From Lautropia sp. (GTDB taxonomy: Bacteria; Pseudomonadota; Gammaproteobacteria; Burkholderiales; Burkholderiaceae_E), in assembly GCA_030523825.1 (NCBI GenBank), contig JAUNHU010000018.1, forward strand, positions 1 through 32,975: a stretch of 32,975 nucleotides of DNA. The letters run 5' to 3'. Numbering within the stretch: position 1 is the stretch's first letter; the number at the start of each line of letters is the position of its first letter. Shown in pieces: positions 1-10,310 of the stretch. The notes below the pieces were generated by a model. The model made no database searches and had not been told where the DNA came from. It saw nothing but the letters and a program-made list of their open reading frames with translations. Both the position numbers and the translations under genes were made by a program.

Positions 1-104
1 TCCTCAAGAAAGTCAGCAGCCGCATCATCAACGAAGTCCGCGGCATCAACCGCGTCACCTACGACGTGTCCTCCAAGCCGCCGGCTACGATTGAGTGGGA
101 GTGA
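1..104 (+). CDS. guaA: GMP synthase (glutamine-hydrolysing), C-terminal end only
   Basis: Reading from base 3, the last 33 codons end in [10 protein letters not shown] followed by TGA at 102-104. This is the highly conserved C-terminus of GMP synthetase, the dimerisation and XMP-binding tail. The enzyme aminates XMP to GMP with ammonia from glutamine in cytoplasmic purine synthesis. The rest of the gene lies outside the window. The 3' end looks intact, so whatever lies downstream did not break it. The 3' end of guaA is a known integration site for genomic islands. Confidence 0.93.
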
Positions 105-278
105 TTCCGTGATGGCTTGGGTCAGCCATCCATCCCATTGCGTTGGCCGCCTGGAATAACCTTGCTTGAATGAGCTGCAACCTGATCGCATGCTGTTTGG
201 CAGAAAACGGTTGGTAGCTTTCCCTTCTCCTTGAACCGGCAGCTTGCGGCAGGCCCGCATGACGCTGACCTCCTCCCA

Positions 279-1159
279 TCATTTGGCCCGGTCATTGCTG
301 GAAAAATCGGCGTGTTGGGAAGGTGTGAAATGCTCGAAGAACGCGTTGGGCGTGAGGGCTGCGAGCGATGAATGCGGCCTGAAATGATTGTAATTCTGTC
401 TCCAGTTTTCAATCTTCCGGCACGTGTCATCCAATGAGAGAAACCAGTGTGGGTTCAGGCACTCGTCACGGAAACTGCCATTGAACGATTCAATGAAGGG
501 GTTATCGGTTGGCTTTCCCGGGCGCGAGAAATCCAGTACGACATGGGACTCATAGGCCCACTGCTCCATGACCAGCGGGATGAACTCACTGCCATTGTCC
601 GTCCGTCTGGATCCGCTCCGAAAGCTCCCGCTTGTGTCTCAACCCATTCATCACTGTCACGACATCTTCTCTCTTGAGCTGCTGACCTACCTGGATGGCC
701 GGGCACTCCTTGGTGAAATTGTCCACCACCGTCAGGACGCGAAATCGCTGACCATTGAACAGCGCATCACTGATGAAGTCCATGCTCCAGCACTGGTTGG
801 GGGCCGGCAGGCTGACAGGCGTGTCTGCCGATGAGCGACAGCCTTGCGCCGGCGAGGCCGTTTGCTGCGCAGGTTCAGTCCTGCCTGACAGTACTGTGGT
901 TGACCTTCCAGCCCTCGCGTCTCAACAGCACATAGATACGCCAGAATCCATAGCGAACACGCACTGCGGCGATATTATGGATACGCTTGAGCAGAGCCCT
1001 GTCGTCCCCAGGCTTGGGCCGATAGTACCAGCCAGCCCAGCTTTGACCCATCACCGCGCAAGCCCTGCGTTCGCTGACTCGATAACGATTCAGCAGATGG
1101 CGTACGAGCTCTCTGCGTTGTGGGGGGCTCAGAGCTTTTTTGCCAGCACATCCTGCCAC
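279..1159 (-). pseudogene. IS3-family orfB (DDE transposase), frameshifted
   Basis: Three pieces of one DDE (rve) transposase are seen. Bases 1159-875 give the N-terminal part (RRELVRHLLNRYRVSERRAC and GQSWAGWYYRP), ending early because a short stretch near 890-905 appears deleted. The second piece restores the frame and carries the first catalytic Asp in SMDFISDALFNG, plus IQTD with the second Asp. A tandem GACG repeat (plus strand 597-607) then shifts the frame. The third piece, 569-279, holds the catalytic Glu in FIESFNGSFRDECLNPHW. All DDE residues survive as text but not in one reading frame. Confidence 0.85.
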
Positions 1160-1394
1160 ATCGCCTTGTCCAGACTCAGATCTGCCACCAATTGCTTGAG
1201 CTTGTGGTTCTCTTCCTCCAGCTGCCGAAGCCTTCTCAGTTCGCCCACACCAAGGCCTTTATACTTCTTGCGCCAAGCATAAAAGGTAGCCTAGTAGATC
1301 CCCGTCTTGCGGCAGACCTCCCCTCCGAGGTACCGGTATCGGCCCGTTTGAGCGCGAATGCAAGCTGCACCTCAGTGGACTTCGACTTATTCAT
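1129..1394 (-). pseudogene. IS3-family orfA (HTH transposase subunit), broken
   Basis: Starting from ATG at 1394 the protein reads MNKSKSTEVQLAFALKRADTGTSE. It then loses frame; the family continues in another frame as EVCRKTGI. An in-frame TAG follows where the family has Ser-Glu before ATFYAWRKKYKGLG. The leucine-zipper-like end (LRQLEEENHKLKQLV) and the closing WQDVLAKKL with TGA at 1129-1131 are readable. Intact orfA binds the IS ends. Here at least one frameshift and one nonsense mutation prevent a normal product. Assignment to the IS407-like group rests on the conserved start and zipper. Confidence 0.8.
1135..1143 (-). promoter_or_regulatory. Programmed -1 frameshift site of the IS
   Basis: On the minus strand the bases gcAAAAAAG lie just before the orfA stop. 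A-AAA-AAG is the classical slippery heptamer that lets IS3 elements make an OrfAB fusion. The orfB frame (CAGKKALSPPQRRE) overlaps here in the -1 frame, as expected. It is now of no use because both frames are damaged elsewhere. Confidence 0.6.
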
Positions 1395-1662
1395 GGCGAC
1401 GGGCCTCCTTGTCCGAGTGTCGCCGATTTCTCCACTTCTGAGTGGGCTAACTTACAGGGAGGAGGCCACCGTCACCTACCTATTTGGCAACCGGTGACTA
1501 ACCCCCCGGGAAGTCTTTCTCATCTTCAGGTGCGTGGGCCGGCTACTAGTCAGGTGGGAATTGCGCTGGGATTTCATCGGATAGGGCCCGTGCGCTGCAG
1601 GATCTCAAGGTGGCAGTTGTTGCGGTGGTGATGTAGGAGATGCGGGGCTAGTTTCAGTTAGG

Positions 1663-1857: not shown

Positions 1858-1932
1858 ATGAATGAGCATGATCTAGTTGTTTTAAAACAACAAAAACGGG
1901 CCGTTTTTCATGACCACAGAAATAGAGGGTGA
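1858..1932 (+). CDS. Possible 24-residue peptide
   Basis: ATG at 1858 is preceded by AAGGA seven bases upstream, a fair ribosome site. The frame starts MNEHDLVVLKQQKR and stops at TGA 1930-1932. The DLVVLK start faintly recalls the first strand of DUF4926-type small proteins, but the rest is missing, so this is at most a truncated relic. The frame runs through both abutting palindromes. Weak call, given only so that the reader knows the frame exists. Confidence 0.15.
   Translation: MNEHDLVVLKQQKRAVFHDHRNRG
1876..1908. repeat. Two back-to-back perfect palindromes
   Basis: GTTGTTTTAAAACAAC (1876-1891) is a perfect 16-base palindrome. It is followed with no gap by AAAAACGG-G-CCGTTTTT (1892-1908), a second palindrome with 8-base arms. 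The second has a run of T on either strand and could act as a weak two-way terminator; the first looks more like an operator. They lie about 175 bases upstream of the ATPase start, so a regulatory role for that gene is possible. Confidence 0.5.
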
Positions 1933-2017
1933 GCTAACAACTATTGGGTATAAGGTGATGTTGCCTGTTAACCTTATAACCAAGACAACCAGTGAGCGGT
2001 GGCAAGGGGGTATTTGA
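1910..2017 (+). CDS. Possible 35-residue leader peptide upstream of the ATPase gene
   Basis: ATG at 1910 opens a 35-codon frame starting MTTEIEGEL. The large ATPase gene 174 bases downstream starts MTTEAEVLV, and both ATGs follow a short T-rich stretch. This could be a decayed copy of the gene start, a leader peptide, or chance. No Shine-Dalgarno sequence is seen. The frame begins right after the palindromes at 1876-1908. Confidence 0.15.
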   Translation: MTTEIEGELTTIGYKVMLPVNLITKTTSERWQGGI

Positions 2018-2083: not shown

Positions 2084-4693
2084 ATGACAACTGAGGCAGA
2101 GGTACTCGTTGACATTGTTAAATGGTCCGCTGATAGTCCCTCCTGGCAACGCGATGCACTCCGTCGGCTTGCCGAGGGTACGTTCCCTCTTGGGCCATCT
2201 GAGATCGATGAGATGGTTTCGATCTGTAGGGGAGAAAAATCGGCTGTACCGATAGAGGCGGAACACCTTCGCAGCCCTAATCATAATCAGGAGGAGGTCT
2301 ATCTGCGTCAAATCCATAGGGTTCGGCATGTCAACGCGCTGGCTTCAGATCAACGACTGACTCTCCACCGTGTTGGTTTAACTATTATCTATGGAGATAA
2401 CGGATCAGGAAAATCCAGCTACGCGCGTATTCTTAAGAAAGTTTGTCGCGCGCGTATGCCCAGTCGAACTGCGGAAATTTCTCCAGACATCTATGACTCG
2501 GCGCCAGGTACGCCGAGCGCCACGATAGAATATGCGGTCGGTTGTCATAATCGAACTTGTGTTTGGCAGCTTGGAAAGGTTGCTGATAGTGCGCTGTCAT
2601 ATATCAGTGTATTCGATTCTCATTCTGCAAATGTCCATGTCGATGATACGAATGACGTTGCATACACGCCGTTTCCGCTCAAATTGTTGGGAGCGCTGGC
2701 GAATCTTTGCAAAACCGTTAAGGAAAAGCTGGCGGCGGAGATTGCACAGATAAGAACACAAACGCCTGAAGCGATTAGGGCTCCAGCGTGCAGGAAAGAT
2801 ACAACGGTCGGTAAATTCATGGCTGGGCTCACCGCGAACACCGATTCGAGGAAGGTTGAAGCCTTGGCGACGCTTACGCAAGCAGACCAAGACCGATTAG
2901 CACAGCTTAATGTGGACTTAGCAGGTGATCCGACTCGCGCGGCACGTCAGCTCGTTACGTTGAAGACCAAGATTGATGGGTACATAGTACGTTTGGACCA
3001 ACTATTTACTGCAATTAGTGACGATAGCGCCAATAACCTACGCCGTCTTGCCGTTGAATGTGATGCAGCACGGCGCGCCGCGGAAGCGGCTTCCAACGTC
3101 CTTTTTAGCGACGAACCATTGCCGCGGATCGGGTCTGCGGTGTGGCAGGCGTTGTGGGCTAGTGCTCGAGCATTTTCTGACAAAGAAGCCTATCCTGAAC
3201 GGCGATTCCCCGTGACGGATCTTGGCAGCGTATGCGTGCTTTGTCAGCAGGAACTGACACCGGTAGCCGCTGATCGTGTCAAGCGTTTTGAAGCTTTCGT
3301 GCGCGACGACAGCCAGAAACGTGCTGAAGCTGCGCTCGTTGCTTATGACAGGGCGCTGGCAGCATTCAACGGCTATGCTGTTTCATTGACAGAGCTCACA
3401 AACATCGTCGCAACTCTCCGCGATGAACTGCGCCAGGATGCCTTGGCTTTGGAGGTAAAAGACGCAATCCTGCGTGCTCTTTGGCGTCATCGCCAGATTA
3501 GGCGACGCCACGCAGATCCAAGTACCTCTATTGATGTGCCCGTTCCGGAGTATTCGCGTCAAAGGCTAATAGATCAAGCCTCGGACATAGAGACTCGAGC
3601 TAACGCGCTTACAGCAGAGGCAGGTTCTCCGGCTCGTACCTCCTTGCTTACAGAACAAGCAGAGCTTGTTGATCGGCTATGGTTTTCTAGCGTTAAAGCC
3701 GACGTTCTTGCTGAAATTGAGCGGAAGAAGAAGATCAAACAGCTTGAGTCAGCCCAGCGAGACACTGCTACTAACCGCATTACCGCCAAGAGCACAGAGA
3801 TTGCTCAGGTTTTGGTGACGGACGCGCTACGCAGACGGTTTGCTTGCGAGGTGGAAAGCTTCAAGATCGCTGGTTTAGCTGTGGAACTCAAGCAGCAGAA
3901 TAGCAGCCAAGGTGTCCCTCGGTTCAAAGTTGCTCTTTCGAGAAACCCCAAGGTTTCAATAGGGCAGGTTTTGAGCGAGGGCGAGTATCGATGTGTTGCC
4001 TTGGCTGCGTTTCTGGCCGAACTTGCTACAACTGAGAGTAAGTCTGGTATCGTTTTTGACGATCCGGTTTCCTCGCTTGACCACATGCACCGGGAAGCTG
4101 TTGCCAAGCGTTTGGTAGCTGAAGCAGTGCATCGCCAGGTTATTGTCTTTACGCATGATCTTGCTTTCTTGTTCGAGCTAAATCGTGCTGCAGATGACAC
4201 CCAGCCCAAACCAACGGTGGCGATTAGCTCTGTTAGCCGGGGGACTAACAAGGCAGGTTTCTGCCGTAGTGAGCCTCCGTTCAAAGCGCGTCGGGTTAGT
4301 GACATCACAACAAGTCTGAGAAATCAGCTTGCGGCTGAATGCTACCAATTTGAGCAAGGTAACCACGATGAGTGGCGCAAGTCCGTCAAATCCATCGCAG
4401 CAACGTTGCGCGATACGTGGGAGATCGCGGTTGAAGAATCGGTCGGGCACGTCATCCGGCGACTGTCTAACGAAGTGAAGACGCCTGGTCTTGTCAAGTT
4501 GACTGTTATTACGGTTCACGACTGTGAGGCTATGCGTGATGGCTTTAGTCGCTGTTCTGAATTGTTACATAGTGCCGCCGCAGTCTTGAACCGCCCTCTG
4601 CCCAAGCCTGATGAATTGAAGGCGGAGATTGATGCCTTGGCGGAGTGGACGGATAGCCTGCGGAAGCGTCAGAACTCTGCGAGGTTGCCTTAA
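2084..4693 (+). CDS. RloC-like SMC/ABC ATPase with zinc hook and putative C-terminal RNase domain
   Basis: 869 residues. An N-terminal helical module of about 90 residues (SWQRDALRRLAEGTF) precedes the ATPase. Walker A is GDNGSGKSS (104-112). A long helical arm surrounds a CVLC motif (C384, C387), in zinc-hook position. The ABC signature is LSEGEYR (630-636), Walker B IVFDDP with D659 and D660, the D-loop SSLD, and the switch His is H691 in FTHD. The tail after about 735 resembles the RNase end of RloC-type proteins. It has R776-x3-E780, and R823-x5-H829 fits the HEPN Rx4-6H pattern. RloC proteins are ATP- and zinc-controlled tRNases that cut at the anticodon wobble base after phage attack. 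Function here is inferred. Lower GC than its neighbours, no restriction-modification genes next to it, and a start preceded by GAGAGG all fit a single-gene defence cargo. An SMC-type ATPase without nuclease activity is the alternative. Confidence 0.75.
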   Translation: MTTEAEVLVDIVKWSADSPSWQRDALRRLAEGTFPLGPSEIDEMVSICRGEKSAVPIEAEHLRSPNHNQEEVYLRQIHRVRHVNALASDQRLTLHRVGLTIIYGDNGSGKSSYARILKKVCRARMPSRTAEISPDIYDSAPGTPSATIEYAVGCHNRTCVWQLGKVADSALSYISVFDSHSANVHVDDTNDVAYTPFPLKLLGALANLCKTVKEKLAAEIAQIRTQTPEAIRAPACRKDTTVGKFMAGLTANTDSRKVEALATLTQADQDRLAQLNVDLAGDPTRAARQLVTLKTKIDGYIVRLDQLFTAISDDSANNLRRLAVECDAARRAAEAASNVLFSDEPLPRIGSAVWQALWASARAFSDKEAYPERRFPVTDLGSVCVLCQQELTPVAADRVKRFEAFVRDDSQKRAEAALVAYDRALAAFNGYAVSLTELTNIVATLRDELRQDALALEVKDAILRALWRHRQIRRRHADPSTSIDVPVPEYSRQRLIDQASDIETRANALTAEAGSPARTSLLTEQAELVDRLWFSSVKADVLAEIERKKKIKQLESAQRDTATNRITAKSTEIAQVLVTDALRRRFACEVESFKIAGLAVELKQQNSSQGVPRFKVALSRNPKVSIGQVLSEGEYRCVALAAFLAELATTESKSGIVFDDPVSSLDHMHREAVAKRLVAEAVHRQVIVFTHDLAFLFELNRAADDTQPKPTVAISSVSRGTNKAGFCRSEPPFKARRVSDITTSLRNQLAAECYQFEQGNHDEWRKSVKSIAATLRDTWEIAVEESVGHVIRRLSNEVKTPGLVKLTVITVHDCEAMRDGFSRCSELLHSAAAVLNRPLPKPDELKAEIDALAEWTDSLRKRQNSARLP

Positions 4694-5268
4694 ATCCTTA
4701 GCCGTGTCTGATCCGTGCGTCGTCGTGTGGGCCTGTTCTGGCTGATGGTGTTTTGGTATTGTTGCCTAGGTTGCCTCTACTGTCAGCCGGCCATGTTCCC
4801 GAATCGGGCACTAGCGATGCTAGATGTCTTTTACCGGGCCGGAGCGCCGGTTCTCAGGGGGGCACGCGGTGGGGCTTTGTTGCAGGCAGAGGCGATGCCC
4901 GCCGAGTGGGATAGCAGCGAGCCATCACGGCAGGTTTTGCGCGGTGCAGGCGGGCCTAGCCCGTTGTTCACCTTTGGTGCCCTCTCGGGCACTTCCATGA
5001 ATTAGGCGCCCTTCGGCTGGTTGGACGCCTTCATCTGCCTGCAGGCAATCTTTGTATCATCCTTTCTGCTCATCTTGAGCACTGCCGTTCTGGGCACTCC
5101 TGCGTCGCCATGCGCGGATGCAAGCGGTGTTGATATGCGCACAGAATCGTTTTTGTGCAACAAGGTGGATATATAATCAAAAAACTGCGTTTCTGAGCGG
5201 ATTTCCACCCGCTTTGCCTGATTGAAACGTTTTTGAGCACCACCCACCGTCCCGCCCGGAGCCATCTG
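4694..5268. other. Intergenic region between the ATPase and fic genes
   Basis: No recognised gene. A GTG-started frame of 96 codons (4715-5005) has a Trp/Cys-rich hydrophobic start (LFWLMVFWYCC) but no ribosome site and no family resemblance, so it is not called as a gene. GAGTGGGA at 4904-4911 repeats eight bases of the guaA 3' end. A small hairpin GTGCCC-TCTC-GGGCAC lies near 4977-4992. The right part contains the probable fic promoter. Confidence 0.4.
5150..5177 (+). promoter_or_regulatory. Probable sigma-70 promoter of fic
   Basis: A perfect -10 box TATAAT lies at 5172-5177 within an AT-rich patch. The best -35 candidate is TTTTTG at 5150-5155 with a 16-base spacer, which is a weak match. 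Transcription would start near 5185 and leave a leader of about 85 bases before the fic ATG. Confidence 0.45.
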
Positions 5269-6831
5269 ATGAATCATCTGCCCGCCGATCCGTTAGGCGC
5301 TGCCTGGCTGGCGCAGTCCTTCGATGTGATGCCCCTGGCGGGCCTGCCGGTGCTAAGCCAGGCCGGAGGGCGTCGCACGTCTGTGACCGATGAAGATGGT
5401 GTCCGCCTGGAGACCTGGCCCGAGGCAATGCGGCCGGCGTCAGAGCCTGCGGCGCATCTGCAGTTCCATCTGCGGCACGAGGTGCCGCAGATGGAGTTTC
5501 TGGCCCGGCTGTTCGCACGCTCGGGGCCGGCATTTGTACAGCAGTGGATCATGGCCGAACCCACCGGGCAGTATGCGCGTCGGGCTGCCTTCCTGTATGA
5601 ATGGCTTACGGGTGACATGCTGGATGTGCCGGAGCGTCTGGGCGGAAACTATGTCGATGTTCTCGATGATTCCCGGCTTGTGGCGGCATCGCCGGGGCGG
5701 GCCGTAAAGGTGCCACGCTGGCGGGTCAACGACAATCTGCCCGGTACGCCCGTCTTCTGCCCGATTGTGGTCAAGACCGCTGCGCTTCAGCGGGCTGCCG
5801 GTCTCGATGTTTCCCGCCTGCTGGCCGAACTCGAAGCGGAGTTTGGCGAGGAGCTTCTGATGCGGGCCGCCGTGTGGATGACCCTGCGCGAAAGCAAGGC
5901 CAGCTTCGCCATAGAGGGTGAGGCAGGGGATGCAGGGAGGGTGCAGCGTTTTGCCGACGTGCTGGCAAGGCGAACCGGGCAGGGCAGTCTGCCGCTGGAT
6001 GATGCAGCACTGGCAGCCTTGCAGCAGGCCATATTGGGCCGCAGGACGACGCTGGCGCATTTTGGGCTGCGGCAGTCGCCCGTCTTCGTGGGCGAGCGTG
6101 TGCACTATCAGGAGGTGGTGCATTATGTTGCGCCGCCTGCCGGCGATGTTGCGTCAATGCTCGATGGGCTGAGAACCTTTTTAGAGCGCACCGCCGGACA
6201 GTCGTCGGTGATGCGCAGTGCGGTGGCGGCTTTCGGGTTTGTCTACATTCATCCCCTGGCCGATGGCAATGGCCGGGTGCATCGCTTCCTGTTCAACGAC
6301 GTGCTGCGGCGGGACGGGGTTCTTCCCGATCCGTTGATCCTGCCCCTTTCGGCACTCATCACGGATGACGCAAGTGAGCGGCGCGCCTACGATCGGGTGC
6401 TGGATCGGGTCTCCGGGCCGTTGATGCAGGCGGTGCGCGATCAGGTGGTTTTCGAGCCGGTACAGACCACGTGGCCCGATGGTGTTGTCTCGGACTTCTC
6501 ATTCCAGGGGGGAGAGCAGGCGCGTCCGCTATGGCGTTACCCCGATCTGGGCGGGCACGTGGTGTTTCTGGCGGGCCTCATCGAGCGCACCCTGCAGGGC
6601 ACCATGCGCGACGAGTCGCGCTATCTGCGCGCACACGCGAAGGCACGGGTTGCGCTGAAGGAGGTGGTCGAGATGCCCGATCATCAGGCCGACCGGGTTC
6701 TGCGCTCGATTGCGCAGAATCGCGGCGAACTCAGTAACGTGCTCGCCCGGGAGATGCCCATTCTCCTGCAGCCGGGCGTGTGGGATCAGATCGTCGCGGC
6801 GGTAAACGAAGCCTTCGATGGCCTCCGGTGA
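5269..6831 (+). CDS. Fic family protein (probable AMP-transferase) with built-in inhibitory motif
   Basis: 520 residues from ATG 5269, chosen because CGGAG at 5257-5261 sits seven bases upstream; a TTG twelve codons earlier has no such site. The Fic signature HPLADGNGRVHR is at 328-339, with catalytic His328, the anion-binding DGNGR and terminal Arg339. An inhibitory helix motif S-x3-E-G (S212, E216, G217 in SFAIEG) lies upstream of the Fic core, as in class II Fic proteins where the Glu blocks ATP placement. Fic enzymes transfer AMP, or sometimes other groups, to hydroxyl side chains of target proteins. The target is unknown. No separate antitoxin gene is adjacent, which fits self-inhibition. 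A C-terminal helical region of about 130 residues follows. Its promoter is its own, and it lies between the ATPase island and queF. Confidence 0.85.
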   Translation: MNHLPADPLGAAWLAQSFDVMPLAGLPVLSQAGGRRTSVTDEDGVRLETWPEAMRPASEPAAHLQFHLRHEVPQMEFLARLFARSGPAFVQQWIMAEPTGQYARRAAFLYEWLTGDMLDVPERLGGNYVDVLDDSRLVAASPGRAVKVPRWRVNDNLPGTPVFCPIVVKTAALQRAAGLDVSRLLAELEAEFGEELLMRAAVWMTLRESKASFAIEGEAGDAGRVQRFADVLARRTGQGSLPLDDAALAALQQAILGRRTTLAHFGLRQSPVFVGERVHYQEVVHYVAPPAGDVASMLDGLRTFLERTAGQSSVMRSAVAAFGFVYIHPLADGNGRVHRFLFNDVLRRDGVLPDPLILPLSALITDDASERRAYDRVLDRVSGPLMQAVRDQVVFEPVQTTWPDGVVSDFSFQGGEQARPLWRYPDLGGHVVFLAGLIERTLQGTMRDESRYLRAHAKARVALKEVVEMPDHQADRVLRSIAQNRGELSNVLAREMPILLQPGVWDQIVAAVNEAFDGLR

Positions 6832-7085: not shown

Positions 7086-7556
7086 ATGAGAAACCCCGAC
7101 GACCTGCAAGGCATTACCCACCTGGGCAACCAGAAAACCACCTACCGTGACGACTATGCGCCGGAGGTGCTGGAAGCCTTCGACAACAAGCATCCGGGCA
7201 ACGACTATTTCGTGAAGTTCGTCTGCCCGGAGTTCACCAGCCTGTGCCCCATCACGGGCCAGCCCGATTTCGCCACCATCGTCATCCGCTACATTCCGGC
7301 GCAGAAGATGGTGGAAAGCAAGTCGCTGAAGCTCTACCTGTTCAGCTTCCGCAATCACGGCGATTTTCATGAGGACTGCGTCAACATCATCATGAAGGAT
7401 CTGATCCGGTTGATGGCGCCGAAGTACATCGAGGTCTTTGGCGAATTCACGCCGCGTGGCGGCATTGCCATCCATCCCTTTGCCAATTACGGCAAGCCGG
7501 GCACGCCCTTCGAGCAACTGGCACAGGATCGCCTGTTTGCGCACGACCGGCAGTGA
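7086..7556 (+). CDS. queF: NADPH-dependent 7-cyano-7-deazaguanine (preQ0) reductase
   Basis: 156 residues, the length of the short, single-domain QueF type. The enzyme reduces the nitrile of preQ0 to the amine preQ1, the step before insertion into tRNA wobble position 34 on the way to queuosine. Catalytic Cys54 sits in [13 protein letters not shown], with Asp61 as the usual proton donor. The family signature [20 protein letters not shown] is present with substrate-binding Glu77 and the FHE end. ATG 7086 follows the AT-rich CTGTAAACTTTTCCTCCC, whose CCTCCC is not a Shine-Dalgarno sequence, so the ribosome site is weak. A queuosine-precursor transporter gene follows, so the two form a functional pair. 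Confidence 0.95.
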
Positions 7557-7648
7557 TCTGCCGGCGATGCCACCCGCCAGGGCATGATGGGCAGGCGTGA
7601 TTCCGATCCGGGGTATTCACCTTTTGGCTCTGCTTGCCAGCCACAAAC

Positions 7649-7670
7649 GCCGGAGAGGCATTTCTCCGGC
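7649..7670 (+). terminator. Hairpin with T-rich tail between queF and yhhQ
   Basis: GCCGGAGA (7649-7656) pairs perfectly with TCTCCGGC (7663-7670) across a six-base loop. A T/C-rich run (TTTTCTTCTTCTCTTT) follows, so it looks like a rho-independent terminator. It lies only 24 bases before the yhhQ start. It therefore either ends queF transcripts or acts as an attenuator of yhhQ. I could not fit a preQ1 aptamer to the sequence before it. Confidence 0.5.
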
Positions 7671-7693
7671 AAGCCGTTTTCTTCTTCTCTTTC

Positions 7694-8368
7694 ATGCAAG
7701 ACTTCATCTTTACCGAAACCCAGCAGCGCAAGGCGCTGTGGTTTCTGGTGGCGTTTCATGTCGTCATCATTGCGTCCAGCAATTTTCTGGTGCAGTTTCC
7801 GTTCACCATCACGCTGCCCAATGGTTTCGAGGTGCATTCCACTTGGGGGGCGCTCAGCTTTCCGTTCATCTTTCTGGCCACCGATCTCACCGTTCGCATC
7901 TTCGGTCAGCGGCTGGCGCGCCGGATCATCTTCTTCGTGATGTTGCCCGCGCTTGTGCTGTCCTATGTGATTTCGGTGCTCTTTCATGAAGGCGCCTGGA
8001 TGGGGTGGGGCGCGCTTGCCAGTTTCAACACCTTTGTCTTCCGGATTGCGCTGGCGAGTTTTGCTGCCTACGCATTCGGGCAGATTCTGGACATCGTCGT
8101 TTTCAACCGGCTGCGCCAGCTGAAGTCGTGGTGGGTGGCGCCCACGGCATCCACCTTTGCCGGAAATGCGCTCGACACGCTGCTGTTCTTTGCCATTGCC
8201 TTCTACGCCAGCTCCGACCCCTTCATGGCAGAAAACTGGCCGCACATCGCCTTCGTCGATTATCTGTTCAAGCTCGCCATCTGCGCGCTGATGTTCATTC
8301 CTGCCTATGGGGTGCTGCTCAGCGTGCTCACCCGCAAGCTCACGGCCGCAGGCGCTGCTGGCTCCTGA
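7694..8368 (+). CDS. yhhQ: Queuosine precursor transporter (VUT / YhhQ family)
   Basis: 224 residues with about six hydrophobic segments. They run from LWFLVAFHVVIIASSN near the start, through WGALSFPFIFLATDLTVRIFG, to a last segment around LAICALMFIPAYGVLLSVL. The pattern FPFIFLATDLTVRIFG and the KSWWVAPTASTFAGNALDTLLF segment are typical of the YhhQ family, which brings preQ0 or preQ1 across the inner membrane. ATG 7694 is preferred over an upstream TTG at 7634, which would start inside the hairpin region. No Shine-Dalgarno sequence is visible. Placement after queF supports the substrate assignment: import of preQ0 followed by its reduction. Confidence 0.9.
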   Translation: MQDFIFTETQQRKALWFLVAFHVVIIASSNFLVQFPFTITLPNGFEVHSTWGALSFPFIFLATDLTVRIFGQRLARRIIFFVMLPALVLSYVISVLFHEGAWMGWGALASFNTFVFRIALASFAAYAFGQILDIVVFNRLRQLKSWWVAPTASTFAGNALDTLLFFAIAFYASSDPFMAENWPHIAFVDYLFKLAICALMFIPAYGVLLSVLTRKLTAAGAAGS

Positions 8369-8686: not shown

Positions 8687-8965
8687 ATGCCTCAGCAGCC
8701 ACCCCTCACACAGCTCTCCCTTCTCACGACCACCCAGCTGGGGGCTGTGCTGCAGGCTGCCCGCAAGAGCAGGCGCATGAGCCAGTCGGCGCTGGCCAGC
8801 CGCCTTGGGCTCAGCCAGTCGCGGGTCTCACACCTGGAGCTGCACCCCCAGGAACTGAGTCTGGAGCAGCTGCTGGCCTGGTGTGCCGCGCTGGATCTTG
8901 AGCTGTGTGTCGCATCGCGCGAGCCGGCATCGACACCCGCTGCCTCCGCGCCGCTGGACTGGTGA
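8687..8965 (+). CDS. hipB: HipB-like antitoxin, XRE-family DNA-binding protein
   Basis: 92 residues. A helix-turn-helix of the Cro/XRE type spans roughly residues 18-70. LGAVLQAARKSRRMSQSALA leads into the recognition part ASRLGLSQSRVSHLE, followed by the closing helix LEQLLAWCAALDLEL. The C-terminus is short and Pro/Ala-rich. In HipBA pairs this protein binds the kinase toxin and represses the operon. The three palindromes just upstream are its expected binding sites. The stop is one base from the hipA ATG, so the two are surely co-transcribed and probably translationally coupled. Confidence 0.9.
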   Translation: MPQQPPLTQLSLLTTTQLGAVLQAARKSRRMSQSALASRLGLSQSRVSHLELHPQELSLEQLLAWCAALDLELCVASREPASTPAASAPLDW

Positions 8966-8966
8966 G

Positions 8967-10310
8967 ATGGGGCGCCCTTCGCACAGTCGTAGCCTGTCCA
9001 TCTGGATCAACGGGATCAGGGTGGGCCGATGGACAATCCCTGCGAGGGGAGAGGTGGAGTTGCAGTATGACCCCGCCTGGGTTGCGTCCGCGGCTGGCAG
9101 GCCGCTGTCGTTGTCCCTGCCTTTCAACCTGCAGAACCAGCCTCTGAAGGGGCCCAGGGTCGCCCATTATTTCGACAACCTGTTGCCCGACAGCGACCTC
9201 ATCCGTCGCCGGGTTGCCGAGCGCTTCCGCACGGCATCAACCGATCCCTTCGATCTGCTGAAGGCCATCGGTCGTGATTGTGTGGGGGCGGTGCAGATTC
9301 TGGATGAGGACGAGTCGCCGGAAGGTTTTGACCGGATGGAAGGCACGCCTCTCACCGACGAGGATATCGAACGCCGGTTGCGTCAGATGGTGTTGCCCTC
9401 AACAGACTTTGTGCAGGGACGCAATTCCGATGACGAGCTGCGCATTTCGCTGGCAGGCGCCCAGGAAAAGACGGCCTTTTTGTGGTGGCAGGGGCAGTGG
9501 CGTGTGCCCCACGGCGCAACGCCCACCAGCCACATCTTCAAGCTCCCGCTGGGTCTGGTGGGTGGACGCATGGCCGATTTCAGCACCTCGGTCGACAACG
9601 AATGGCTGTGTCTTCGCCTGCTGAGGGCATATGGATTACCGGCAGCCAATGCGCAGATTGCCACCTTTGGCAAGCAGCGCGTGCTGATCGTGGAGCGCTT
9701 CGACCGGCGGCTGGCACCTGATGGACAATGGCTGATGCGACTGCCGCAGGAGGATTTCTGTCAGGTCGAGGGCTGCTCTCCCCTGCGCAAGTACGAGAAC
9801 GAGGGCGGGCCGGGATTGAAGGCGTTGTTCGATACCCTGCGTCATTCGGTAAACGCCGAAGCAGACATGAAAACACTGCTTGCTGCGCAGATCCTGTTCT
9901 GGTTGTTGCGTGCACCCGATGGTCACGCCAAGAATTTCAGCATCCAGCTCCTGCCGCGCGGCCGCTTTCAACTCACCCGGCTCTACGATGTCATGTCAGC
10001 CTATCCAGTGCAGGGAGAAGGGCCGGGCCAGTGGTCTGCGCATGAACTGCGGCTGGCGATGGCCCTGCTCGGAAAAAACCGCCATTACCGCATGCTCGAC
10101 ATTCAGCGCCGCCATTTCAGCAGCACGGCGCGAAAGGTGGGATATGGCTCAAGTGCAGAACCGCTCATCGAAGACATCCTCGCGCGCACGCCAGCCGTCA
10201 TTGCCGCGGTGGAGGCGGAATTACCAGCGGATTTTTCTGCGCATGTAGCCGACAGCATTCTGGGTGGCCTGCAGAAGGCTGCGCAATCGCTGGAAGGCAT
10301 GGCGTCCTGA
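8967..10310 (+). CDS. hipA: HipA-like serine/threonine kinase toxin
   Basis: 447 residues from ATG 8967, chosen because it follows the hipB stop by one base; an earlier in-frame start would lie inside hipB. The N-terminal couple_hipA region (SIWINGIRVG to AHYFDNLLPDS) is followed by the kinase core. The regulatory P-loop RISLAGAQEKTA carries Ser161, equivalent to the autophosphorylated Ser of E. coli HipA. The ATP Lys is probably K192 (HIFKLP). The catalytic loop is APDGHAKNFSI with D318, and the metal Asp is D341 in LYDVMSAYP. All key residues are present, so the kinase should be active. E. coli HipA phosphorylates glutamyl-tRNA synthetase and causes dormancy. The target here is unknown, since HipA homologues vary. 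Confidence 0.93.
   Translation: MGRPSHSRSLSIWINGIRVGRWTIPARGEVELQYDPAWVASAAGRPLSLSLPFNLQNQPLKGPRVAHYFDNLLPDSDLIRRRVAERFRTASTDPFDLLKAIGRDCVGAVQILDEDESPEGFDRMEGTPLTDEDIERRLRQMVLPSTDFVQGRNSDDELRISLAGAQEKTAFLWWQGQWRVPHGATPTSHIFKLPLGLVGGRMADFSTSVDNEWLCLRLLRAYGLPAANAQIATFGKQRVLIVERFDRRLAPDGQWLMRLPQEDFCQVEGCSPLRKYENEGGPGLKALFDTLRHSVNAEADMKTLLAAQILFWLLRAPDGHAKNFSIQLLPRGRFQLTRLYDVMSAYPVQGEGPGQWSAHELRLAMALLGKNRHYRMLDIQRRHFSSTARKVGYGSSAEPLIEDILARTPAVIAAVEAELPADFSAHVADSILGGLQKAAQSLEGMAS

Follow-up and report, generated by a model that had tools for sequence, protein, structure and literature searches.

RloC proteins are wobble-excising anticodon nucleases that are inhibited by zinc. They are defined by an Arg-X3-Glu-X36-52-His signature, a CX2C insert within the ATPase head and a length of 658-897 amino acids (PMC2610378; this and all other published work is cited here from those portions of each article that were available). 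In the G. kaustophilus protein, nuclease activity is lost on change of R692, E696 or H737, and RloC is described as controlling its nuclease through the ATPase and zinc hook of the same protein (PMC2610378). Activation by DNA breaks has been reported for the RloC proteins of G. kaustophilus and A. baylyi, for the latter in mutants deficient in restriction-modification (R-M) (PMC3874168), and RloC tails have been assigned to the HEPN domain (PMC3710099). Linkage to type I or III R-M genes was recorded in 8 of 73 cases (PMC2610378) and is called rare (PMC3874168). For a subset of RloC-like proteins, mobile neighbourhoods that also contain R-M components and a Doc-type gene have already been reported (PMC3710099), as has an island with type III R-M and RloC (PMC11680222). 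Here we describe an rloC-type gene in a 32,975-nucleotide stretch of DNA from Lautropia sp. (assembly GCA_030523825.1, contig JAUNHU010000018.1, positions 1 to 32,975), hereafter the window. Its product is very probably an RloC-family protein, a candidate tRNase controlled by an ATPase and a zinc hook, encoded by what appears to be an orphan copy that is kept by purifying selection.

Every sequence feature of an RloC protein is present in the 869-residue product, namely: 1) an ATP-binding cassette (ABC) head; 2) a helical insert that splits this head and carries CX2C; 3) an Arg-X3-Glu-X36-52-His tail; and 4) a size within the published range (Table 1). The initial annotation had proposed that the protein is an RloC-like ATPase which bears a zinc hook and ends in a candidate RNase tail, and the motifs that it listed (Walker A, CVLC, LSEGE, DDP, R776, E780, H812, R823 and H829) were all found by script where it had placed them. 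Profile searches gave a Pfam AAA_13 match over residues 101-707 (75 bits) and full-length matches to two models of the PADLOC candidate system PDC-S06 (645 and 601 bits); the NCBIfam matches were to ABC-type ATPase models, and all of the 25 listed among 29 were far below cut-off. PDC-S06 is a candidate entry for which the available text gives no function (PMC11514479, PMC11811056), and it is among the PADLOC names that are given another name by DefenseFinder (PMC11811056). Because PDC-S06 is matched over its full length, AAA_13 is matched as well, and C384, C387, R776, E780 and H829 occur in all 25 aligned close sequences, the motifs are not due to chance. The longest frame on the opposite strand over 2084-4693 is 167 amino acids, and the gene is present as a single copy in its own genome (G000; 293 contigs, 81% complete).

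A scan of bacterial genome contigs returned 29 relatives (L001-L029) with 47-83% identity in the best segment, of which L019, L021, L026 and L028 are partial matches and L016 and L027 contain interruptions. Alignment A1 comprises the window protein and 24 of these, with L026 as a partial sequence; excluded were L016 (stretches of N, stops) and L019, L021, L027 and L028 (truncated, broken or fused). Among plasmids, 269 records matched, with a query coverage of 80% or more in 163 and an identity below 60% in 268, and 12 were examined in detail. These 12, together with the window protein and seven of the 24 A1 relatives, form a diverse set of 20 sequences, and alignments A3 (tails) and A4 (N-termini) are this set minus L001 and L031. 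No match was found in phage records and no relative in two scans of viral contigs. The 40 genomes of kin held one strong homologue (G024, 34% identity) and two weak matches (E 3e-4 and 4e-4), and 11 of 369 genomes drawn from the class, the gene's own genome among them, matched at E 1e-40 or better. The distribution is thus sporadic, and the gene has therefore probably been transferred between lineages.

G104 and K110 of Walker A are found in all 24 sequences that cover it, and the switch histidine, H691, downstream of the D-loop, is invariant in 25/25. Both hook cysteines are likewise invariant in the close set of 25, window protein included, and in the diverse set of 20, which reaches down to 23% identity. 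R776, E780 and H829 are also present in 20/20 diverse sequences, and in A3, where the pairwise identity of the 18 tails is 16-79%, they are the only invariant columns, with a Glu-His gap of 48 residues in the window protein (E780-x48-H829) and of 48-52 in all 18. S830 is invariant too in the 25 close sequences. Position 823 is Arg in 24/25 of the close set, but in the diverse set it is R in 11, K in 6 and E, N or H in one each, and R823 was therefore rejected as a strict catalytic residue. Position 812 is His in the window protein alone (1/25), the others having P (9), A (9), D (3), E (2) or L (1), so that the alternative triad with H812, to which the initial annotation had drawn attention for its PrrC-like spacing, is a coincidence. 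Alignment of homologues, which it had named as the check between H812 and H829, thus decides for the latter; its expectation of conservation was borne out for R776, E780 and H829 and failed for R823. The histidine relevant for mutation is fixed as 829, not 812.

In the predicted structure the tail is formed of helices at 738-757, 761-795, 811-828 and 842-866. The second of these carries R776 and E780, and H829 directly follows the third, in a region of low model confidence. CVLC lies in a loop between the long helices of the predicted arm, and the top Foldseek matches of the model are the heads of SMC, Rad50 and RecN proteins.

With RloC the window protein shares an ABC head of the Rad50 type that is divided by a helical insert carrying CxxC, the tail signature and the size range, and also, as in most published cases, the lack of an R-M neighbour in the window. 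It differs from G. kaustophilus RloC in having its first CxxC cysteine at 384 rather than 288, that is with 96 more residues ahead, whereas the distance from CxxC to the nuclease arginine is similar (389 against 401, from C291 to R692). With PDC-S06 it shares a full-length profile match. PrrC, which acts with EcoPrrI, is likewise an ABC ATPase joined to an Arg-Glu-His anticodon nuclease (a candidate one here), and one plasmid relative (L036) also lies inside a type I R-M operon. However, PrrC has 341-416 amino acids and no zinc-hook insert, its Glu-X31-His spacing is not the one conserved in the window family, and its gene is embedded in a type I R-M operon, whereas no R-M gene was found in the window. 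Rad50/SbcC, SMC and RecN share the ABC head and coiled-coil arm, and Rad50/SbcC also the CxxC hook, but none of them has an equivalent of the nuclease tail (PMC2610378, for Rad50 and SbcC).

Although divergent, the window gene is maintained by purifying selection. Of 12 comparisons two are saturated, and the remaining ten give a ratio of non-synonymous to synonymous substitution rates (dN/dS) of 0.107-0.116; no stop or frameshift interrupts the frame at dS near 1. Motifs, conservation, neighbourhood, decay of an upstream open reading frame (ORF) and selection were all observed here.

How such a protein would act can be proposed by analogy with characterised RloC proteins, from which the dimer, the tRNA cleavage, the trigger and the antiviral role are borrowed. 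Two subunits would pair through their Rad50-like heads and CxxC zinc hooks, and this pairing would keep the C-terminal helical domain off. The signal may be DNA ends, as from double-strand breaks when a phage degrades host DNA, or perhaps failure of restriction. Nucleotide hydrolysis in the heads would then release R776, E780 and H829, and this candidate triad would cut the anticodon loop of tRNA, so that translation stops and the infection is aborted.

Several results weigh against the RloC assignment or its orphan history. The model of the whole protein is of moderate quality (mean predicted local distance difference test score 77.6, below 50 at 829-831; predicted template modelling score 0.50), and the Foldseek template modelling scores are low (0.18-0.28 by query length among the 50 matches listed). 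Sequence searches of the tail against Pfam and solved structures gave nothing significant, to HEPN models or otherwise, and of the HEPN motif Rx4-6H (here R823-x5-H829) the His is invariant while the Arg is replaced in 9/20 diverse sequences. Moreover, the decayed ORF upstream is not an R-M gene, and it has many plasmid relatives, some beside recombinases. Finally, no R-M gene was found beside 10 of the 29 relatives (L005, L006, L012, L015, L017, L019, L023, L026, L027 and L029), some of which have little flanking DNA and neighbours that were scanned in part; this bears on our view that the window copy is an orphan, which appears to derive from a cassette that mostly lies beside R-M genes in its sisters.

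The initial annotation had noted the absence of an R-M partner. None was indeed found in the window by a Pfam scan of ten ORFs and tblastn of ten R-M representatives, the other ORFs being unscanned and the contig starting 2 kb upstream; to regard this as unusual is at odds with the published linkage of RloC in only 8/73 cases (PMC2610378). The close relatives present a different picture, with same-strand, adjoining R-M genes in 16/29 and a small ORF in between in five. With families named by Pfam and PADLOC for representatives, and by tblastn of ten representatives for the rest, these are: 1) an MmeI-like type IIG enzyme, a DEAD helicase and a GIY-YIG protein (L001, L007, L008, L009, L011, L014, L025 and L003, the last with only the end of the GIY-YIG gene on its contig); 2) an Eco57I-like methylase with a GIY-YIG/ResIII protein (L010, L013, L016); 3) an Eco29kI pair (L018); 4) another type IIG enzyme (L022); 5) type I modification (M) and specificity (S) genes (L004) or a fragment of a type I restriction (R) gene (L020); and 6) a downstream type III pair (L024). 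Three further relatives have R-M genes in a looser arrangement: in L002 an Eco29kI pair is 1.3 kb distant and on the opposite strand, in L021 such a pair is found 4.2 kb upstream of the truncated rloC copy, and in L028 the fused copy is preceded by an MmeI-like gene. For the 12 plasmid relatives, whose PLSDB annotation is incomplete, a DNA methyltransferase gene is upstream of L031 (80% identical), brxL lies about 5 kb from L039, and a Moellerella plasmid has the relative inside a type I operon, after S and before R (L036:1207-11783; M-S-[gene]-R); the other nine have no R-M gene in that annotation. In the seven loci that contain all three of the MmeI-like set, the helicase and GIY-YIG genes follow the MmeI-like enzyme (as in L014:4414-7705). 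Representatives of these two gave no PADLOC match, and they may therefore possibly form an undescribed extension of type IIG systems. The MmeI-like frames are split in some loci (L008, L025).

R-M linkage thus looks enriched in the clade of the window gene (16/29 against the published 8/73), in a sample drawn by similarity to one query rather than at random and in which many of the 29 are mutually close. In the available portions of the literature searched, we found no description of RloC linked to type IIG, Eco29kI or Eco57I-like systems. It is possible, and we suggest it tentatively, that this clade of RloC is a portable guardian which plugs into R-M systems of unrelated kinds (MmeI-like type IIG with helicase and GIY-YIG protein, Eco57I-like, Eco29kI, type I and type III); it would therefore have to sense something common to all of them, such as DNA ends or lost restriction activity, and not one R-M protein, and the window copy would have been kept by selection after loss of its partner. 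Given the contrast in linkage, a guardian role that extends beyond type I R-M can be put to the test, the orphan serving as a natural control, and loss of R-M may be worth testing as a second trigger.

Of the alternatives to an orphan RloC, the one that fares best is that the guarded R-M system acts in trans, as with PrrC: a distant type I-like locus would silence the protein and phage inhibition of R-M would release it. Elsewhere in the same genome, contigs C237 and C280 carry N6_Mtase and HSDR_N matches (weak for HSDR_N on C280), so that R-M in trans is possible, and the relatives do adjoin type I, type IIG, Eco29kI, Eco57I-like and type III genes. A guardian role is moreover known for PrrC (PMC12707154) and stated in passing for RloC (PMC12322248). 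However, R-M is unlinked in the window and A. baylyi RloC is activated in R-M-deficient mutants (PMC3874168), and we consider this explanation rather unlikely.

Unlikely, too, is a self-sufficient defence system in which no R-M protein is ever needed and a phage factor is detected directly by the N-terminal helices. It was suggested in the initial annotation, which had taken the N-terminal module of about 90 residues before Walker A to be unusual. The module exists, with three helices predicted at 4-15, 20-31 and 38-48. They are followed by strands at 72-81 and 98-104, with which, in the model, the ATPase head itself probably begins, so that about 60 residues, rather than 90, make up the extra module. 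It is ordinary, being found in 35/35 full-length aligned relatives (23 from A1 and the 12 from plasmids) as well as in a full-length homologue from Bradyrhizobium BTAi1 (47% identity, 874 amino acids), and the idea that it is special to the window protein was dropped. W14 and W21 are its most conserved residues in A4, and a search of these helices against solved structures led nowhere. The BTAi1 homologue has an ArdC gene (PF08401) about 1.1 kb downstream, and an ArdC-linked RloC of BTAi1 is listed in Table 1 of PMC2610378; the extended type was therefore evidently already in the founding RloC survey. The presence of the module in every full-length homologue aligned, including nine plasmid copies without annotated R-M (from the incomplete PLSDB annotation), would suit a self-sufficient system, as would the R-M-independent activation of A. 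baylyi RloC by DNA breaks (PMC3874168). Yet the trigger reported in print consists of DNA breaks that act by way of the ATPase, no observation ties the N-terminal helices to sensing, and R-M genes adjoin 16/29 close relatives. What had seemed a stand-alone protein with a new module is thus better placed as a plain member of the RloC family, a known type of phage-defence enzyme.

It is also quite improbable that the gene is a decaying relic, an intact frame left over from a broken island. The upstream ORF and an insertion sequence (IS)-like element are decayed, no right-hand repeat of the guaA end was found, the branch of the window gene is long (0.235), residue 112 is Ser in place of the Gly of all 23 A1 relatives that cover it, and the GC content of third codon positions is 0.50 against 0.59-0.71 in 12 relatives. 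Against this, 869 codons have stayed free of stops and frameshifts, the triad and ATPase residues are all kept, and dN/dS is about 0.11, compared with 0.076-0.095 in six other pairs. The best structural matches (SMC/Rad50 heads) might suggest a DNA repair ATPase of the Rad50/SbcC kind that lacks RNase activity, but this is hardly credible when the nuclease triad forms the only invariant residues of the tail alignment.

The orphan RloC gene is, on comparison with one relative, an insertion between guaA and fic. In G007 (L065) guaA ends at 1767 and the fic match (65% identity) starts at 1873, whereas in the window about 5.1 kb separate the two genes, hence an insertion. In L015 guaA is 323 bp upstream of rloC, and in L004 its end is about 4.5 kb upstream. 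In L001, L002, L004 and L022 (four near kin among the 42 loci searched) the guaA-end motif recurs about 116 bp past the gene, as it should where islands integrate at guaA; the window was searched for such a right-hand copy, and none was found. A guaA-flanked defence island has been published in Stenotrophomonas maltophilia (PMC11680222). A plasmid search with the 2083 bp upstream of the gene gave no match.

Table 1. Features of the rloC-type gene and its borders in the window (all positions refer to the 32,975-nucleotide stretch).
Feature	Position	Strand	Evidence
rloC-type gene	2084..4693	+	869 amino acids, frame without interruption; Pfam and PADLOC matches
N-terminal helical module, about residues 4-60	2093..2263	+	model; all 35 full-length aligned relatives; A4
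Walker A, GDNGSGKSS, residues 104-112	2393..2419	+	motif placed by script
CVLC zinc-hook motif, residues 384-387	3233..3244	+	loop between predicted helices 352-369 and 393-430
ABC signature LSEGE, residues 630-634	3971..3985	+	script, alignment
Walker B and D-loop, residues 655-666; DDP 659-661 (D659-D660)	4046..4081	+	script, alignments
C-terminal all-helical domain, residues 736-866, candidate HEPN anticodon nuclease	4289..4681	+	model, alignment A3
R776-x3-E780, first two residues of candidate triad	4409..4423	+	25/25; 18/18 in A3
H829, third residue of candidate triad	4568..4570	+	25/25; 18/18 in A3
guaA (GMP synthase) 3' end, left border of insertion	3..104	+	PF00958; 94% DNA identity over 102 bp to guaA of G002
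Degenerate element, presumably IS3-like, broken in several frames	106..1500	-	translation; 103-bp DNA match to L016
Decayed remnant of 75-77 amino acid ORF, interrupted by stops	1892..2011	+	tblastn E 5e-4; three-frame translation
fic gene, right neighbour	5233..6831	+	PF02661; homologue directly after guaA in G007

The element at 106..1500 we take to be IS3-like from its translation. The remnant that follows it matches the small ORF with 44% identity over 32 amino acids and 36% over 42 (tblastn). Intact, this ORF of 75-77 amino acids overlaps the rloC start in seven loci (L001, at 7771-8001, L002, L003, L004, L014, L022 and L031), and just before it there are R-M or methyltransferase genes in 6/7; L002 has instead a 250 amino acid ORF, presumably a recombinase. 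One copy scanned in Pfam gave no match. The ORF has matches in 2018 plasmid records, most of them partial and only 31 over 80% of the query, and in 4 of the 20 plasmid matches listed a recombinase or DNA-invertase is annotated under the match. It therefore looks like a companion of mobile elements, and the idea of a dedicated RloC partner or antitoxin was dropped.

Downstream of fic, the window carries queF and a Vut_1 transporter gene (7086-8368), the latter presumably queuosine-related. We found nothing to support a functional link of the two with RloC as wobble-base genes: in G001, G002 and G007, queF is remote from guaA or lies on another contig. There is a HipA gene in the window as well, at 8883-10310, about 4 kb from rloC, and a HipA-type gene stands shortly before the RloC relative in Methylocella (L042:3920-8604, with one ORF between) and in Bradyrhizobium BTAi1 (L084:6135-10035). 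On a Rhizobium plasmid (L040:4219-10658) the relative is flanked by a zincin-like metallopeptidase gene and a nucleotidyltransferase/HEPN gene. Another locus of BTAi1 (L028:6783-8696) has a helicase part in frame with residues 638-869 of an RloC relative, without the RloC Walker A and zinc hook, and this fusion looks like a recombination product.

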